Source: Calditrichota bacterium
Lineage (GTDB): Bacteria > Calditrichota > Calditrichia > RBG-13-44-9 > J042
NCBI GenBank assembly: GCA_013150955.1
Contig: JAADJD010000047.1
Coordinates: 1 to 8,995, forward strand
DNA: 8,995 nt
Direction of reading: 5' to 3'
The position numbers and the translations under genes were made by a program. The first letter of the stretch is position 1. Every line of letters begins with the position of its first letter. Shown piece after piece: positions 205 to 8,708 of this stretch. A model generated the notes under the pieces. The model saw only the letters and a program-made list of their open reading frames with translations, made no database searches and was not told the DNA's origin.

Positions 205-1110
205 TTACCTGATCCTTACCAGATCGCCTACCTTAAATCCCGATCCCGAAATAATCACTGCCTTACAGGCACGGCCATCTCCAATATCGCGGATCACACG
301 AATGCGCCCTACCCTATATTCCTCGCTACCCAAGGAAAGTCCGGTATCGGGATCAATAATTTCCTCGCCCGGAGAATAGACCACAAATTCCATCCCCGGC
401 TGTACTCCACCCCGGGATCCCGGCTTCATGTACAGGGTACTGTCCGGGTTAACTTTAATGATCTTCCCCTGCCAGGGAATGCGCGCCATCGCCCGATCGA
501 TGATGCGCACGCACTGTTCAATGGCTTTTCTGGCTGCTTTTCCCAGAATGGTTTGATCCCAGGTGGTGGGATTGCCAAAATCGATATCCTCAAAACGAAC
601 GTGATCCAGGCTGGTGGAGGTGGCCTCCCCGACGGCCGATTCGGCCATGACAATTTCGCCCGTCTGGGAATTGACCAGGCGGATGTCCACCACGGCACGG
701 GCTTTTCTTCGGGAAATTGCTCCACCGATTCCAATCCGACCCAGTGCTCCGCCAATTTTCGTCTCTTTCTGACCGAACTCGGTCACACTCCCGGTGACGA
801 TAAGCTCGACCCCCAGCAGCTTACCCACACGGGCAGCGCTTTGCGCGGTTACCATACCCGACATGCCTAAGGATTGTTCCTGCAAAACCTTTTCCAGCTC
901 CTGACGCTCAATCACAATAAACTTGCCGCTCTTTACCAGCTGGGTGATGAGCATGTCGGCCAACCCGGTTCCAATGTTATGTCCGTATCCGCTGCGATCC
1001 TCAAAATTAATCACCGCAACCCGCTTTTTTAGACCGGACAAATCCTGTCCTGTCACTCCGATTAGTAAAATCTGGAGGCCAAACAGTATCAGAAAAAGGT
1101 GGCGTAACAT
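205..1110 (-). CDS. CsgG-family outer-membrane assembly protein with extra C-terminal domain
   Basis: The product has 301 residues. A hydrophobic signal sequence (about residues 5-21) ends in VTG without a lipobox cysteine, unlike Escherichia coli CsgG, which is a lipoprotein. Residues 28-210 look like a CsgG domain: RVAVINFED at the first strand, then LADMLITQL and FIVIERQELEKVLQEQ, then GKLLGVELIVTGSV. The stretch after that (GGALGRIGIGG, then VVDIRLVNSQTGEIV) resembles the part of CsgG that forms its membrane beta-hairpins, so pore formation is possible. Residues 211-301 form an added beta-rich domain (GSRGGVQPGM, YRVGRIRV, FKVGDLVRI) resembling the C-terminal domain of FlgT. The ATG at 1110 is preferred because the GAGAG ribosome site lies five bases before it; the GTG at 1113 is too close to that site. 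The ATG shares one base with the upstream TGA (TGATG), suggesting translational coupling. No curli genes are nearby, so the substrate is unknown. Confidence 0.85.
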   Translation of the reverse strand: MLRHLFLILFGLQILLIGVTGQDLSGLKKRVAVINFEDRSGYGHNIGTGLADMLITQLVKSGKFIVIERQELEKVLQEQSLGMSGMVTAQSAARVGKLLGVELIVTGSVTEFGQKETKIGGALGRIGIGGAISRRKARAVVDIRLVNSQTGEIVMAESAVGEATSTSLDHVRFEDIDFGNPTTWDQTILGKAARKAIEQCVRIIDRAMARIPWQGKIIKVNPDSTLYMKPGSRGGVQPGMEFVVYSPGEEIIDPDTGLSLGSEEYRVGRIRVIRDIGDGRACKAVIISGSGFKVGDLVRIR

Positions 1111-2303
1111 CACGGCTCTCTTTTTAGTTTAATGACCAGCGAGTTCTGAGAGACATTCAATATTTCCACACGATAGGGAGAAAAATCTTTTAAAGCCAGC
1201 TCCTCTGCAATCTGACTGGCCTTGCCGGTAACCTCCACATCCAGCAAAGCCACCGTGCCGGTGAATTCACGCTGATAAATATTCTTAACGCCGCGGACAT
1301 ACGATTTCATCATATTCCGGAATTTTACCAGATCTGCATAGGAGGGGATGTCCAGAATACGAATCTGGATGGTGGTACCGCTGTACACATCTTTTTGCCA
1401 GACCTGAACAATCTTCCTGGTCAGGTCTTCTGCAGCCAGACGGGCCGCTTTCTGAAGTGCGCGGGTCCCGCCGTTTAGGGGATCGATGTGGGCCGCGGCG
1501 GCTTGCTGACTGGTGGTCGCAATGATGCGGCCATCATCGGCACGAATGGCCCGCAGATTGATGGTGGCCTGCACGGAAACCAATCCCGCCTGACGTACCA
1601 CACTGGGCACATTGGCCGCTGGTTTGGATACCGCCTTGCCGATGATGAGCAATTCCGCTCCGCTCTCCAGAGCAATGGACTTTGCCGAATTCACATCCCC
1701 TTCAATGGCTGCCATGATCGCGTCGCGCTTAATCTTCCGCATCACCACGTTCCGATCCACAAAGGTAAACCCTTTGTTCATAAGCTCGTTCATCAATTCC
1801 GTTTCGGTCGTATTCATATCGATTTGGAAGGTGGCGTGATGTTCATCCATGTTTCGCTCATCCACCAGCACCATCAGGCGAGGCATGCCTTTTCGGGTCA
1901 TCAGCAGGCCCAGCGCCTGCAAATCACTTTCCAGATCGGACTTTTTCACCACCGCCTCAATGGTCACTTCCAGAATATTTTCTCCCCGCCGTGCCCGGTT
2001 CAACACCCGATAGGTCTTGACATACCCACGACTCTGGCTGTAAATATTGCTTTCCACCACCTGATAATTCTGCACCAGCACATCAGATTGAATGAGCGTT
2101 CCCACCACCTGCTCAACCGCCATGCGTAACGCATTGGCGATGGCATCGTCTTCCGCTTTGGCTTCATCTCCAGCTAAGATCACCCCCACTCCTTTCACGA
2201 TAACCGATTGCTCACCTTCCATCTGCTGAGCAACAGCGGGGATTCCCAAAAGAATCCCCACCATTACCACACTGAAAATAACGGGTCTGATTATTATCTT
2301 CAT
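1110..2303 (-). CDS. FlgT-like secreted protein (FlgT N-terminal, middle and C-terminal-type domains)
   Basis: The product has 397 residues and a signal peptide ending near PAVAQQ (about residue 26). Residues 33-125 show the FlgT N-terminal-type pattern: VIVKGVGVI, then an acidic AEDDAIANALRMAVEQVVG helix, a SRGYVKTYRVL strand, and VTIEAVVKKSDLESDL. Residues about 130-300 read as a CsgG/TolB-like alpha-beta domain (RLMVLVDERN, FTFVDRNVV, GAELLIIGKAV, DDGRIIATTS). Residues 303-397 form a third domain with alternating strands. In Vibrio, FlgT has this kind of three-part plan and builds the H-ring around the flagellar basal body, but no flagellar gene is present here, so a flagellar role is not claimed. 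The ATG is preceded by AGGA nine bases upstream. The gene follows the TPR-SLH gene by 31 bases and overlaps the CsgG-family gene by one base. The domain assignment is by pattern and needs profile confirmation. Confidence 0.8.
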   Translation of the reverse strand: MKIIIRPVIFSVVMVGILLGIPAVAQQMEGEQSVIVKGVGVILAGDEAKAEDDAIANALRMAVEQVVGTLIQSDVLVQNYQVVESNIYSQSRGYVKTYRVLNRARRGENILEVTIEAVVKKSDLESDLQALGLLMTRKGMPRLMVLVDERNMDEHHATFQIDMNTTETELMNELMNKGFTFVDRNVVMRKIKRDAIMAAIEGDVNSAKSIALESGAELLIIGKAVSKPAANVPSVVRQAGLVSVQATINLRAIRADDGRIIATTSQQAAAAHIDPLNGGTRALQKAARLAAEDLTRKIVQVWQKDVYSGTTIQIRILDIPSYADLVKFRNMMKSYVRGVKNIYQREFTGTVALLDVEVTGKASQIAEELALKDFSPYRVEILNVSQNSLVIKLKREP

Positions 2304-2334
2304 TTTCCGTGGTCCTGTTTCATTGGTTCCCCAT

Positions 2335-3489
2335 TTACAACTGAGCCTTCAACCGCCGGATGATATTCAGCGCTTCCGTACCCGAGACCGGCTCCAGTGG
2401 TCGAAATGTGCCATCGTCAAACCCCGGGATGATGTTTCGGGTGGAAACCAGCATGATGGCATTGAAGATGGGACTGGTGTTGTTTACATCCGAAAATGGA
2501 GAGGTACTGCCAAAGAATTTGGTTTCCAGGGAGGAATCGTTCCAGTAACGTACCAGGAATTTTTCAATCAAACGCGCAAACTCCGCACGGTTGACCACCT
2601 CATCGGGTCGGAAATTGCCATCGGGGTACAATTCCAGCACATTTTTCTGAAGGGCTTCCTGAATAAAGGAACGTGCCCAGTGATTTTGCGGTACATCCGG
2701 TGGCAGGGGATTTTGTGGTCCTGCCGGTTCTTTCTTCCCCATCACGCTGCTGGTAGGGGGACGGAATTTTGCTGTCTGAGGCCCGGTGGACTGCCGAAAG
2801 ATCTTATCCAGTGGCAATTCCAGTACAAATAGCACCGCAACATCGGCGCGGGTAATGGCCTTTTGTTTGGCAATTTTCCGAAGTTCCGGCCGTTGCCCCG
2901 ATATTGCGGCCTTGTATTCAGCCAGTTGCTTGATCGCACGATCGGCCCGCATGTTGGTCTTGTCGATCTCCAGCACCCGCATGTAAGCATTCTGGGCTTC
3001 ATCGTAGCGATCGGCTTCTTTGTATATATCTCCCAGTGTCAAATAGGCTTCAATCGTTGCCCGCCGCTTGTCGGGCACCGTAGATTTTGGGATATCCTTA
3101 ATGGCTTTCTGGGCCTCTTTAATCGCATCCTCAAATTTCCCCTGTTTGGCATACACCTTTGCACGAACAATTTTGGCCAGCACCCACTTGTCATCCAGAT
3201 CCAGCGCCTTTTCTATTGACTTTAATGCCGCGGTCAGGTTCCCCTGTTCTAAATACACCCAGGCCATGCCTTCGTAAGCCGGGGCATATTTCGGATCCAG
3301 GCTATTGGCCTGTTTAAATTCAAACATGGCATCATCCAGTTTCTCCTTATCCAGCAAGTCTTTTCCCCGGGTGTAATGAATATCTGGTGAATCCACCACG
3401 GACATGGCCTTCCGTGCCTTCTGGCCTCCACCACAACCCAGTAATATGCCCAGAAATACTATGACGGTCCATTTCAGAAATGTACGCAT
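2335..3489 (-). CDS. TPR and SLH domain lipoprotein
   Basis: The product has 384 residues from the chosen start. The N-terminus has two basic residues, a hydrophobic stretch and the lipobox LLGC with the acylated cysteine at residue 19, so export as a lipoprotein is expected. Residues about 36-190 hold roughly four tetratricopeptide repeats (for example AMFEFKQANSLDPKYAPAYEG, AALKSIEKALDLDD and YDEAQNAYMRVLEIDK). A half SLH unit, AITRADVAVLF, starts near residue 211. Two fuller SLH repeats follow: DVPQNHWA (265) to YPDGNFRP (288) and NRAEFARLI, then SPFSDV (330) to DDGTFRP near the C-terminus. TPRs bind partner proteins and SLH domains bind cell-wall polymers, so a scaffold between the outer membrane and the wall is likely. 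The start at 3489 puts the lipobox at the usual distance and has GGGGGGAAG just upstream. The longer TTG (3513) and ATG (3504) starts would give an unusual leader and remove the gap to the upstream gene. Confidence 0.85.
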   Translation of the reverse strand: MRTFLKWTVIVFLGILLGCGGGQKARKAMSVVDSPDIHYTRGKDLLDKEKLDDAMFEFKQANSLDPKYAPAYEGMAWVYLEQGNLTAALKSIEKALDLDDKWVLAKIVRAKVYAKQGKFEDAIKEAQKAIKDIPKSTVPDKRRATIEAYLTLGDIYKEADRYDEAQNAYMRVLEIDKTNMRADRAIKQLAEYKAAISGQRPELRKIAKQKAITRADVAVLFVLELPLDKIFRQSTGPQTAKFRPPTSSVMGKKEPAGPQNPLPPDVPQNHWARSFIQEALQKNVLELYPDGNFRPDEVVNRAEFARLIEKFLVRYWNDSSLETKFFGSTSPFSDVNNTSPIFNAIMLVSTRNIIPGFDDGTFRPLEPVSGTEALNIIRRLKAQL

Positions 3490-3493
3490 ATTT

Positions 3494-3502
3494 CTTCCCC
3501 CC
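3494..3502 (-). promoter_or_regulatory. G-run ribosome binding site that decides the lipoprotein start
   Basis: GGGGGGAAG on the minus strand ends four bases before the ATG at 3489. It lies in the 16-base gap after the TAA of the upstream gene. Starting at the alternative ATG (3504) would place this site inside the coding region. It is an imperfect Shine-Dalgarno sequence that depends partly on G-U pairing, and it resembles the one at the left edge of the window. Confidence 0.5.
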
Positions 3503-3505
3503 ATT

Positions 3506-4411
3506 TTAATCAAGAATGATCATGACTTTACACTGTTCCAGAAAATTTAGATTCTGCGCGGCCTGACGAATCAGCTGAGCATCGGCATTGCTAATAACCA
3601 CATCGGTGCGATTGGGTCCCGTTGCCCGTAATGCTTTAACGATCATGGGATTATCGGCCACCCGCTCATTCGTGCGCGCCCGATTGATGTCCTTTTCATA
3701 TCCCACCACGCCAATTTGCACCGCATATTCCCGGCTGACGTTACCGGTTCCATAAACTTCATTGCCCATCTCGTCCACAATTTTTGGGGACAGAGCCGGA
3801 CGTACTCCCAACCCACGCGCATCGATGATCAAACCACTGTACACCACACCCGGACGTGCGGCCGGTGTGGGTGCACCGGATGGACTGGATGGCGGGGGAA
3901 CCGGATAATTCTGGGGATAGGGCTTGCCTGCAGGCCAGGGCTGTCCACACAACGGACATACCTGTGGGGCGGGAGACGCACCCGATTGTTGGGGAACATT
4001 CAGGAAGATTTCATAGAATGCCGACAGAGGCACCTCCACATCCACTTCCACATCCCCGGTAGACACATACCGAATGTCTACCACCCGATAATTTCGCACC
4101 ACACCTTCCACCTTGGTTCGAATAACATCGCTGGTTAACATCATATTTTCCACGGTGGTTTCGGAATTCACATAAACCCCTTTTACAATCTGCAAGATAT
4201 TCCGTAAGGCCACCACTTTTGCGGCTTCAATTGCCGAAGCCCTTTGTGCACCGGGTGGGAGGTTGGGATTTGGTGCGCCGATACCGGTGGCGCGTACCAC
4301 CTGAGCCGTCCAATCAATACCCCCAAAATTATTCAACTGCTGGTAATACTGTGAGTAACCCGCAACAAACCCCACCAACAATAGAAACGCAACAATAGCA
4401 CGATGTCTCAT
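3506..4411 (-). CDS. LPP20/FlgT-N-like secreted protein with proline-rich linker
   Basis: The product has 301 residues and is the first gene of the operon. A signal peptide covers about residues 1-20 (VAFLLLVGFVAGYSQ), with no lipobox. Residues 33-135 follow the LPP20/FlgT N-terminal pattern: WTAQVVRATGIG, then an AIEAAKVVALRNILQIVKG helix, then VEGVVRNYRVVDIRY and VEVDVEVPLSAFYE. A single CPLCG knuckle (Cys152 and Cys155) opens a proline-rich linker of about 35 residues. The C-terminal domain (about 192-301) begins YSGLIIDARGLGVRPALSP, contains EVYG, DNPMIVKA and DVVISNADAQLIR, and ends with a strand after Cys294. That C-terminal pattern recurs in LPP20-type envelope proteins. The start is secure: TAGGAGGT lies six bases before the ATG. 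Its exact function is unknown; a structural role in an outer-membrane or periplasmic complex with its operon partners is inferred. Confidence 0.8.
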   Translation of the reverse strand: MRHRAIVAFLLLVGFVAGYSQYYQQLNNFGGIDWTAQVVRATGIGAPNPNLPPGAQRASAIEAAKVVALRNILQIVKGVYVNSETTVENMMLTSDVIRTKVEGVVRNYRVVDIRYVSTGDVEVDVEVPLSAFYEIFLNVPQQSGASPAPQVCPLCGQPWPAGKPYPQNYPVPPPSSPSGAPTPAARPGVVYSGLIIDARGLGVRPALSPKIVDEMGNEVYGTGNVSREYAVQIGVVGYEKDINRARTNERVADNPMIVKALRATGPNRTDVVISNADAQLIRQAAQNLNFLEQCKVMIILD

Positions 4412-4496: not shown

Positions 4497-4535
4497 ATAT
4501 GAATCATTATGCTGGAGAATTATTAAAAGCGTTTG

Positions 4536-4608
<73 letters not shown>

Positions 4609-4649: not shown

Positions 4650-4752
4650 GCGAATATTTTACCCCTTTTCCTTTAATTTATTATCTTTTACAAAGTTAGC
4701 CAGTAACCATTGCCAAAAAAAATTAAAAATCGTTTTGTTACCGGATTATCAT

Positions 4753-4826: not shown

Positions 4827-4832
4827 AAACAT

Positions 4833-7800
4833 ATGCGGGGTTACGGTTTCGTATTGTTGTTAGTCATAAGCTTTGTTGTCTTTGTATCAGCACGGGACAT
4901 TCGCGACCAAGGGAACAACTCATCCGCATCTCAGAACCCGGATCCCAACACACCGGTGGTACTTTCTGCTCAGGAACCTCAGTACCTTCCCGGGGTAATT
5001 GTGGTTAAATTAAAAATGGAAAGTGCGGATTTTCAGTACTCCATAAAAGACGGCAAGGTGCAAACCGCATTTGCCGATATAAATGAAGCCATTCAAAAAT
5101 TTAATGTTCACAAAATCCACCAACCCTTTCCTCCTTCAAAGAAATTCAGGCGCAAAACCGCACGCGCCGATCTCACCCGAATTCGATATTTCTATTTTGA
5201 CAAGAGCCAGGATGTGCTGGAAGTCGCAAAATACTTCAATCAACTTCCCAACGTCATCTACGCGGAACCGTTGGAAATACATTATCCTTTGGAAGTACCA
5301 AACGACCCCAAATACAGCAAACAATGGCACTTTCAAAATATTAATGCTGAAGCTGCATGGGATTTGCAGCATGGTGACACAACCATAATCATTGCCATTA
5401 TTGATACAGGTGTAGATCTGGACCATCCAGATATTCAAGCAAATTTATGGACTAATCCTGGAGAAATTCCTGGAAATGGTATAGATGATGATGGGAACGG
5501 ATACATCGACGACATCCATGGCTGGGATTTTGTTGGAGCCGACATTAATAACAGAACACCTGATGGGGATCCAGATCAAAAGTACGATTCTCACGGTACG
5601 CACGTGGCCGGGATTGCCAATGCGGTTACAAATAACGGTTTAGGAATTGCGGGCATGGCCTGGAATTGCCGCATCATGGTAACCAAACATGCACCCGATG
5701 CCGAAAGCACAAGCATTTATTACGGATATGATGGTATTACATATGCTGCGGAAAACGGTGCGGATATTATAAATTGTAGTTGGGGAAGCGGAAGATACTC
5801 TCAATATGGTCAGGAAATTATCAATTACGCTTATGACCTCGGTGCTTTAGTTGTGGCAGCTGCTGGTAACGATGGTCCCGGTGGCACTTATTCTCCACCC
5901 GATACACCGCCTCCACACTATCCTTCGTCTTACGAACATGTTCTGTCGGTCGCGGCAACAAACAGCAGAGATGAAATTACCTCTTGGTCTTATTACGGTC
6001 CTACAGTAGATGTTGCGGCACCCGGAGAAGCCATATATAGCACCATCCCCAGTAGCTCCGGTGTGTATGATTTAGCATATGGGGCCATCAGCGGTACCTC
6101 TATGGCTTCACCTTTAGTTGCTGGCTTAGCGGCTTTGGTAAAAAGCGCTTTCCCAGATTGGGGGCCGGATCAAATCACCTCCCAGATTATAAATAGTGCG
6201 GATGATATCAGTTCAATTGGGAAAAATCGTTCCTATATTGAGGCTGGAGGATATGGATCGGGACGAATCAATGCGTATAAAGCAATTTCTTTAGAAGCTA
6301 AGCCGCAATTTGAGATCGTGAGAATAGTTTATAACGATTCATTGGGTGGCAATGGAAACCTCACTCCTGAACCCGGCGAAACGATTGATATCATTATTTA
6401 TTTTAAAAACACCTGGGGAAATGCGACGGATGTTCAAATAAATTTAGGCGTTTCAGATTACGCCGTGAATTTATTGGATAATAACGCAAATGTTGGAGAT
6501 GTTCCCGGTGGGGCCTCCATATTTAATAATAAAAATGATGTTTTCCGTATCGAAATTTTACCAGATGTTTTACCACATATCGTAGAATTGCAATTTACTT
6601 TCTCAGACGCTAATGGATTTACTCAGACCTTCTCGAAAAAATTTTCCATTCGGCCAATGGTACTTTTTGTAGACGACGATGATGGTATTAATAATATTGA
6701 ATCGTATTATACGGAAATATTGGATAGTTTGAATATTGTTTATGAATATTGGGAACATGTGGGCAAGGAATTGCCCTCTGATTTATTGTTAAAATATCCA
6801 GTTGTAATCTGGGCCTGTGAATGGACATTTCCGAGTTTAAATCAAAACGATCGGGATGAAATTGCTAAATATCTGGACAGTGGGGGTAAGCTGTTTATTT
6901 CGGGCCAGGACATCGGCTGGGATTTAGCGGATCCCACAGGCGCTTCTGTACCCAATGAATATGGGAGATCCAACGGTGCTTCTCGAACTTTCTACGAAAA
7001 TTATTTAAGGGCTGAATACATCTCGGATCAATCCCAGTACAACAAATTAAGCGGCCAAGCTTCTGATCCGATCGGGGATGGATTATCATTTTCTGTATAT
7101 CAACCTGGCCGCACATCTAAACAACAATTCCCCAGCGAAGTCCATCCAATCAATGGATCTGTTTCTATTTTTAATTATCCTAATGGATTGAGCGGGGCAA
7201 TAAGATATTCAAATGGATATCGATTGGTCTATTTTGCATTTGGTGGATTTGAAGCAATTGTAGAAAAAAGCGTACGAGACATTGTAATGCCAAGAGTAAT
7301 AAATTGGCTAAATGGATTTTCAATTACTCACGAACCATTAAAAGACACAGAAGACTTAACTAACAGTTATCCGGTTATCGCAAACGTCCATTCCGCAGTC
7401 GATTCTTTGGTTAAAATAGAACTTTACTGGAACACCCAAGATCAATTCCCATATCAAAAAATACCAATGACTGAAGTGGAACCAGGAAAATATTTAGCTG
7501 AAATTCCGCCTCCACAAAGCCCAACAGACATTCATTATTTCATTTACGTGGAATCTGAAAAAGGAACATATGCACCCATTGTAAAATACAAGTTTCACGC
7601 CGGTCCAGACGAGGTTCCTCCTGTCATTACCCTAATATCTCAGCCACAAAGAAATACGATCAATTTGAATCAAGCATTTCAATTCACAATAAAGGCCGAG
7701 GACAACATAGGAATCGATACAACGACAGCGAAACTTCACTATTGGAGAGCAGGACAAACAGAGCAAGTCATAAATATGGACTTTATAGGGGATAATCAGT

Positions 7801-8708
7801 TTATTGGATCGTTTTCTGTTTCCCCAATAGAACCACGGACACGCTACATTTACTATTATTTTTCAATTAATGATATCTCTTCCAATCGCAACCTTGCGGT
7901 ATCCGATACTTTCTTTTTCTCGGACACCACGGAATTAATCGATGATTTTGAAGAAAACAACCCTAAATGGGATCTTGGAAAGTATTGGGATTATTCGAGT
8001 TCGAGAAGACATTCCGGGCAGCGATCCATTTCGGATAGTCGGATTGGGAAATATAAAAACAATACCAGAGACTCATTAACTTACTTAGACTTTTTCGATT
8101 TAAGATATGTTAAATCGGCATGGATTGATTATTATATCCGTTATGACCTTGAAAGGAACAAAGATTTTCTATATTTTCAGATTACACCTGACAGTGGACA
8201 AAGCTGGATTACATTAAAAGAATATACGGGCAGGAGGGGAAGCTTTGTACCGGATACGGTATATATTAACCAATTTACAGGTGAACAGTATGAACACGTA
8301 GGTTTCCGCTTCCTATTGGTCACCGATTCAACCGGTACAGCAGATGGAGTGTATATTGATGATATATCAATTACCGTATCAAATCAAAAAATTACTTCAA
8401 TAAGCCTGAAAGGTATACCATCAATACCCGAAAAATATTATTTAAGGCAGAATTTCCCCAACCCGTTTAATCCAATAACAACCATTGAATTTGGTCTTCC
8501 TAAAAACAGTGAAATCCGTTTAGAAATATTCAACATACTTGGACAAAAAATACGGATCCTTGCGAGTGGTCTCTATAAACCGGGACATTATAAGGTTAAA
8601 TGGGATGGTAGAAATGATCAGGGAATCCCGGTACCCTCTGGGATTTATTTTTACCGGTTATCTACGAATAACTTTGTAACCATTAAAAAAATGATCCTAA
8701 TGAGATAA
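4833..8708 (+). CDS. Secreted multidomain subtilisin-like (S8) serine protease with T9SS sorting domain
   Basis: The product has 1291 residues. A signal peptide covers about residues 1-20 (FVLLLVISFVVFVSA). Residues about 45-150 form an inhibitory propeptide-like region (YLPGVIVVKLK). The S8 catalytic domain (about 157-488) has Asp191 in IDTGVD, His254 in SHGTHVAG, oxyanion Asn346 in AAAGNDG and Ser423 in SGTSMASP, so it should be active. An acidic insert, DDDGNGYIDD (218-227), probably binds calcium. A CARDB-like beta domain follows (491-605), then a glutamine-amidotransferase-like fold (about 607-830) whose elbow reads SGQDIGW (690-696) without the usual cysteine. Two Ig-like regions come next (about 841-1030), then a MAM or jelly-roll domain (1037-1180). 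The tail carries the T9SS type A motif NFPNPFNP (1207-1214), ending GIYFYRLSTN plus a basic strand. It is expected to be exported by Sec, then T9SS, with the tail removed. It is a separate unit, divergent from the tRNA and operon, and more AT-rich. Function beyond extracellular proteolysis is unknown. Confidence 0.92.
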   Translation: MRGYGFVLLLVISFVVFVSARDIRDQGNNSSASQNPDPNTPVVLSAQEPQYLPGVIVVKLKMESADFQYSIKDGKVQTAFADINEAIQKFNVHKIHQPFPPSKKFRRKTARADLTRIRYFYFDKSQDVLEVAKYFNQLPNVIYAEPLEIHYPLEVPNDPKYSKQWHFQNINAEAAWDLQHGDTTIIIAIIDTGVDLDHPDIQANLWTNPGEIPGNGIDDDGNGYIDDIHGWDFVGADINNRTPDGDPDQKYDSHGTHVAGIANAVTNNGLGIAGMAWNCRIMVTKHAPDAESTSIYYGYDGITYAAENGADIINCSWGSGRYSQYGQEIINYAYDLGALVVAAAGNDGPGGTYSPPDTPPPHYPSSYEHVLSVAATNSRDEITSWSYYGPTVDVAAPGEAIYSTIPSSSGVYDLAYGAISGTSMASPLVAGLAALVKSAFPDWGPDQITSQIINSADDISSIGKNRSYIEAGGYGSGRINAYKAISLEAKPQFEIVRIVYNDSLGGNGNLTPEPGETIDIIIYFKNTWGNATDVQINLGVSDYAVNLLDNNANVGDVPGGASIFNNKNDVFRIEILPDVLPHIVELQFTFSDANGFTQTFSKKFSIRPMVLFVDDDDGINNIESYYTEILDSLNIVYEYWEHVGKELPSDLLLKYPVVIWACEWTFPSLNQNDRDEIAKYLDSGGKLFISGQDIGWDLADPTGASVPNEYGRSNGASRTFYENYLRAEYISDQSQYNKLSGQASDPIGDGLSFSVYQPGRTSKQQFPSEVHPINGSVSIFNYPNGLSGAIRYSNGYRLVYFAFGGFEAIVEKSVRDIVMPRVINWLNGFSITHEPLKDTEDLTNSYPVIANVHSAVDSLVKIELYWNTQDQFPYQKIPMTEVEPGKYLAEIPPPQSPTDIHYFIYVESEKGTYAPIVKYKFHAGPDEVPPVITLISQPQRNTINLNQAFQFTIKAEDNIGIDTTTAKLHYWRAGQTEQVINMDFIGDNQFIGSFSVSPIEPRTRYIYYYFSINDISSNRNLAVSDTFFFSDTTELIDDFEENNPKWDLGKYWDYSSSRRHSGQRSISDSRIGKYKNNTRDSLTYLDFFDLRYVKSAWIDYYIRYDLERNKDFLYFQITPDSGQSWITLKEYTGRRGSFVPDTVYINQFTGEQYEHVGFRFLLVTDSTGTADGVYIDDISITVSNQKITSISLKGIPSIPEKYYLRQNFPNPFNPITTIEFGLPKNSEIRLEIFNILGQKIRILASGLYKPGHYKVKWDGRNDQGIPVPSGIYFYRLSTNNFVTIKKMILMR

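Follow-up and report, generated by a model that had tools for sequence, protein, structure and literature searches.

In Vibrio, the H-ring is built from the proteins FlgO, FlgP and FlgT and is needed for outer-membrane penetration and anchoring (PMC7990780). A beta-hairpin that is inserted after the SHS2 helix and before the second strand holds FlgP rings together; ring formation in the family, FlgT included, correlates with this insertion, and FlgQ of C. jejuni has been described as resembling a repeat of two FlgP units (PMC12222027). The Treponema protein Tp0624 contains a part, D2, that was described as a new fold (PMC5104382). Here we analysed a stretch of 8,995 nucleotides from a Calditrichota bacterium (GCA_013150955.1, contig JAADJD010000047.1), hereafter the window, which is the entire contig C16 of a 4.07-Mb genome that is 99.7% complete. 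It carries an operon of four genes, numbered 1 to 4 in the direction of transcription, whose exported products are built from the same domain families. Because the cluster spans several phyla and often occurs in bacteria without detectable flagella, its products probably form a ring or scaffold that is undescribed, differs from the flagellar one and sits between outer membrane and cell wall.

The cluster and the Vibrio H-ring have in common a FlgP-like domain, FlgT_N with a TolB-like middle, and a CsgG/FlgO-type protein with FlgT_C, all of them exported. The differences are that the FlgT modules are here split over two proteins, with the FlgT_C-like domain carried by the CsgG protein, that TPR-SLH and FecR partners are added, and that the cluster lies outside flagellar loci and is present in hosts without detectable flagella. 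The initial annotation of the window, made from its letters alone, had proposed FlgT, LPP20 and CsgG modules in these genes; the profile searches found all three similarities, and the reading was sharpened by the FlgT_N, FlgT, FlgP and CsgG matches given below.

The product of gene 1 matched LPP20 in Pfam (1.1e-6), and the profile of its family, searched against the PDB, matched Tp0624 over both domains (2.8e-17). In the same kind of search the N-domain matched Vibrio FlgP (2e-8) and, in the C. jejuni motor structure 9hmf, a lipoprotein of 171 residues (5e-12) that was taken to be FlgP from its title and annotation. The profile alignment of gene 1 with the FlgP of 9hmf runs ungapped through the hairpin-insert stretch, from the SHS2 helix to the second strand, and the gene 3 profile likewise aligns to FlgP without gaps there. 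This stretch has low confidence in the monomer model of gene 1; a segment that becomes ordered only upon oligomerisation would behave in this way, although the low confidence in itself proves nothing. Compared with the Campylobacter FlgP basal disk, the homology at the sequence level extends over the helix, the hairpin insert and strand 2, whereas gene 1 has the additional Tp0624-D2 domain and lacks a lipobox, and no PflA/PflB context was seen. The model of the C-domain superposes on the D2 part of Tp0624 (5jir) with Z 17.1 and 1.7 Å over 112 residues. The D1-D2 arrangement of Tp0624 aligns end to end with gene 1, while the OmpA-like third domain of Tp0624 is absent from gene 1 in the Pfam scan; wall binding may here be placed instead on the separate SLH lipoprotein. 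Two LPP20-family Pfam matches were found in the genome of the window, both in this cluster. Another gene of the same genome, outside the operon (L002 1474-2493), encodes a weak LPP20-like N-domain with a TPR-like region; it was considered as a second operon copy and rejected, being a separate LPP20-TPR gene.

Gene 3 showed a full-length match to the NCBIfam profile of Leptospira LipL46 (NF033164, 1.5e-20), which matches 29 of the 29 members of the gene 3 family, all 28 aligned relatives among them. The score is far under the equivalog cut-off (73 vs 400 bits), and no machine role of LipL46 is described in the open-access literature searched. Scans of family members, rather than the direct Pfam scan of the window proteins, which gave neither FlgT_N nor FlgT_C, yielded the FlgT matches: FlgT_N was found in 18 of 29 gene 3 relatives (best 6.9e-12). 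FlgO weakly matched two members of the family. The structural model of gene 3 (predicted local distance difference test, pLDDT, 78.7) had as its top Foldseek matches a Vibrio LPHT-ring chain of 352 residues, interpreted as FlgT, and FlgT 3w1e (1.7e-10 and 2.6e-10). Its middle domain has the TolB/CsgG/PelC fold. The FlgT N and M domains occur together in one protein in this family, as judged from the FlgT_N and Foldseek matches.

Gene 2 encodes the only one of the four products with a lipobox cysteine, Cys19, which is invariant in 16 relatives; its Pfam matches are SLH (3.4e-24) and TPR (2.6e-23). Gene 4 has a CsgG domain (2.9e-37) followed by a C-terminal domain whose profile matches TsaP (1e-8), and FlgT_C matched 3 of 13 C-terminal domains of the gene 4 family (best 3.6e-6). 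The proposal that an FlgT_C-like part is fused to CsgG was supported by these two results. FlgO gave a weak match to a gene 4 relative (0.0016). TsaP, which is associated with the type IV pilus secretin, shares only this C-terminal domain; gene 4 has a CsgG domain and no LysM according to Pfam. The matches to PF16538 in the phylum are mostly TPR-CsgG-FlgT_C proteins at other loci. Because such proteins occur elsewhere, the CsgG-FlgT_C fusion alone is not diagnostic of the operon: it is present here, as had been proposed, and it is not peculiar to this cluster. The TPR-CsgG/TolB-FlgT_C proteins at L086, L088, L089 and L092 lie near an adenine phosphoribosyltransferase-like gene, an OmpP1/FadL-like gene or both.

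The same gene order was found in all 17 Calditrichota loci inspected, with as many genes as the contig holds and with CsgG absent in three; chance is ruled out because the order is conserved. It was also found in metagenome-assembled genomes labelled Nitrospinota and in unassigned ones, and with all five genes it recurs in Desulfobacterota-type genomes. A scan of genome contigs for the gene 3 family revealed relatives labelled Nitrospinota, WOR-3, Deltaproteobacteria, Syntrophaceae, Myxococcales, Armatimonadetes and Phycisphaerae, the phylum labels of the remote host genomes being inferred from their seed loci. Profile searches at E <= 1e-10 detected gene 3 relatives in 121 of the 297 genomes from the phylum to which the Syntrophaceae locus belongs; for the phylum that also includes the Myxococcales locus, the figure was 95 of 195. 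An order unique to this genome or always linked to flagellar loci would have counted against the initial annotation; the order instead recurs across phyla, also in genomes without detectable flagella or CsgF, and the annotation is not refuted on this point.

Twenty Desulfobacterota-type and twenty Myxococcota-type loci were chosen among strong matches, and the rates obtained from them are not those of whole phyla. All five families, including the FecR family described below, occurred together in 10 of the 20 Desulfobacterota-type loci. At the Myxococcota-type loci FecR was adjacent in 19 and a gene of the gene 1 type was present in 17, while neither the TPR-SLH gene nor the CsgG gene was found at any of the 20; these genomes keep a three-gene core of FlgP-like, FlgT-like and FecR proteins. 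In seven loci the reading frame of gene 3 also includes a FlgP-like domain that lacks D2, and this fusion suggests physical association of the two. At three delta-proteobacterial loci (L070 3512-4156, L072 1581-2219 and L079 7424-8029) a small lipoprotein-like protein of another family is encoded just after gene 3; its neighbours there are FecR, a pgsA-like gene and an apparent thrS-infC-rplT cluster. The parts of the cluster belong to known families, and no description of the cluster itself was found in the open-access literature searched, an incomplete set, with combinations of CsgG, FlgT, LPP20, FecR and LipL46.

In most relatives whose contig continues past the cluster, the next gene encodes a FecR-domain protein (Pfam 8e-15) of about 250 residues. 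In some relatives no more than about 10 bp separate its start from the preceding gene; in the genus of the window a gap of about 200 bp, holding the terminator, lies before it. The cluster is one of five genes, and the end of the window's contig cuts off FecR. The four-gene operon first annotated is correct for the window but not for the whole cluster. The genome of the window has its FecR gene at C57:517-1281, near the contig start, and C16 and C57 presumably adjoin. On that contig FecR is preceded by some 500 bp that look odd and apparently do not code for protein (L047 1-516, G000:C57), compared with a gap of about 200 bp in the sister genome; possibly this is an insertion that broke the assembly. 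A second FecR-like protein (L048 1462-2148, G000:C63) is encoded about 28 kb from FlhA on a shared contig. It was rejected as a second operon copy and is a different FecR gene.

The composition resembling FlgP, FlgT and FlgO would also be expected of a true flagellar accessory, a variant of the H-ring or basal disk that was secondarily kept after loss of flagella. The genome of the window does have FlhA, elsewhere than in the operon, and its LPP20-family matches are confined to the cluster; the earlier statement that no flagellar gene is present holds for the flanks read, where none was recognised beside the operon, but not for the organism. However, the distribution across genomes speaks against such an origin. 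A strong match to gene 1 or gene 3 was obtained in 20 of 40 Calditrichota genomes. Eleven of these 20 had an FlhA match, one of them weak and partial, and the other nine had none, or only partial, weak matches in unrelated-looking frames; among the 20 operon-free genomes, FlhA was found in 15. There was no positive association between operon and FlhA (Fisher p = 0.32, or 0.19 without the weak case). The operon-bearing genomes with no FlhA match include G031, which has a completeness rating of 100%, and G039, which consists of one 4.06-Mb contig. An FlhA match was likewise lacking in 12 of 19 remote host genomes, many of which are perhaps incomplete, so that single absences are soft. In addition, the operon is absent from most members of the largely flagellated family f4. 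The operon does not track flagella, and we consider a flagellar accessory rather unlikely.

The presence of CsgG raises the question of whether gene 4 forms an outer-membrane secretion channel that exports a fibre or a protein, with the other products as a periplasmic collar. The CsgG match covers the regions that form membrane hairpins in E. coli CsgG; both align with the operon members, which look more charged there. However, no lipobox was found in 13 operon members aligned with E. coli K-12 CsgG, nor was the motif found in 19 members, and the E. coli segment FKPYPASNF, which forms the pore constriction, falls in a gap in all 13. A curli-type channel is unlikely for gene 4 because the lipobox and the constriction loop are missing. 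Moreover, gene 4 has an extra C-terminal domain in comparison with E. coli CsgG, the partner genes CsgE/F are absent from the cluster, no substrate gene was found, and the CsgG gene itself is missing from three Calditrichota clusters and from all 20 Myxococcota-type loci, as mentioned above. CsgF was detected in one of 40 Calditrichota genomes (G036). A secretion channel is, on these grounds, quite improbable, and of the secretion or ring complex suggested by the initial annotation the secretion half is the weaker one. On the contig G036:C119 (L096, L126), a strong second CsgG (2.5e-65) lies no more than 3.5 kb from CsgF; this pair is separate from the operon copy of that genome and is probably a curli cluster. 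A penicillin-binding protein activator or Tol/Lpo-like system, in which a TPR lipoprotein (as LpoA) and a protein of the TolB/LpoB fold regulate peptidoglycan synthesis or outer-membrane attachment without any ring, is unlikely as well. It would agree with the matches of gene 4 to LpoB (5e-6) and TolB_N (0.0016), with the alignment of the gene 3 middle domain to TolB (Z 11.5) and LpoB (Z 8.8), and with the combination of TPR and wall-binding SLH in gene 2. Yet the TolB/CsgG fold is common to many families and the TPR of gene 2 is generic, no gene for a penicillin-binding protein was noticed near the loci read, and the similarity to FlgT_N, FlgP and FlgT_C is left unexplained.

We see about an even chance that the cluster is a flagellum-independent relative of the H-ring/basal-disk module whose products form a ring or scaffold at the outer membrane that is tethered to peptidoglycan. 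Rings or disks at the inner face of the outer membrane would be formed by the exported FlgP-like and FlgT-like proteins through their SHS2-hairpin domains, and the CsgG/FlgT_C protein, which is FlgO-like, would add a further ring layer. The TPR-SLH lipoprotein would serve as the outer-membrane anchor, with its SLH repeats tying the assembly to the cell wall, and FecR would be a periplasmic partner. Such an assembly could reinforce the envelope or serve some trans-envelope machine as a bushing. The main basis of this proposal is the parallel with Vibrio FlgO/FlgP/FlgT. Domain relationships, conserved five- and three-gene neighbourhoods, natural fusions and the presence in genomes without detectable flagella were observed here; oligomerisation and function are what we infer. 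Several observations weigh against a ring or scaffold. Ring formation is extrapolated from distant homologues, no cargo was identified, and the CsgG/TolB fold serves other roles too (LpoB, TolB, LptE). The window's own gene 3 lacks an FlgT_N match in the direct Pfam scan, its LPP20 match is weak (0.0047), and the template-modelling scores of the whole gene 3 model against FlgT are low (0.25-0.28), which may reflect domain orientation.

A broader and more tentative possibility is that the cluster represents an undescribed machine, widespread outside flagella, that forms a ring or scaffold at the outer membrane and whose parts (FlgP, FlgT, FlgO and the domain that TsaP has in common with it) were recruited into H-rings, basal disks and pilus collars. 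The origin of the outer-membrane rings of flagellar motors is an open evolutionary question, and a conserved operon of the same domain families that is independent of flagella is a candidate source. The operon also offers a way to study rings without a motor in phyla with tractable laboratory species, e.g., Myxococcota, and would place orphan envelope proteins, Tp0624 and LipL46 among them, in a context for the first time.

The features of the operon are listed in the table. The compact arrangement described initially was upheld: the four genes are co-directional and tightly spaced (16 nt between genes 1 and 2, 31 nt between genes 2 and 3), with a ribosome binding site of perfect AGGAGG sequence in front and an intrinsic terminator at the end. 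Genes 3 and 4 overlap by one base (TGATG), or by 4 nt if gene 4 starts at the GTG at 1113. A similar terminator-like hairpin is present at the same position in the sister genome. Likewise, export signals are likely at the N-termini of all four products by inspection, as had been annotated.

Table. Coordinates of the operon features in the window.
Feature	Position	Strand	Description
Gene 1	4411-3506	minus	Exported protein; FlgP/LPP20 (SHS2-like) N-domain including the hairpin-insert region, and Tp0624-D2 C-domain
Gene 2	3489-2335	minus	TPR and two SLH repeats; outer-membrane-type lipoprotein (LLGC-GGG)
Gene 3	2303-1110	minus	Exported FlgT-like/LipL46-like protein; FlgT_N-type domain, TolB-N/CsgG-like middle, C-terminal alpha/beta domain
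Gene 4	1110-205	minus	Exported CsgG-domain protein; FlgT_C/TsaP-like C-terminal domain; without lipobox, without constriction loop
Shine-Dalgarno AGGAGGT	4424-4418	minus	6 nt upstream of the gene 1 ATG at 4411; read from the sequence
Intrinsic terminator-like hairpin, 3' of gene 4	175-158	minus	7 pairs, 6 of them GC; U-rich tail

A tRNA-Gly(CCC) gene (4535-4608, minus strand) lies directly upstream of the operon and is co-directional with it. A secreted subtilase (Peptidase_S8 8e-58) is encoded at 4830-8708 on the plus strand, divergent from the operon; it was rejected as an operon part, being divergent and not a constant neighbour. Its C-terminus is a type IX secretion/FlgD-Ig sorting tail, and the TTG at 4710 that is listed as its start probably lies too far upstream.

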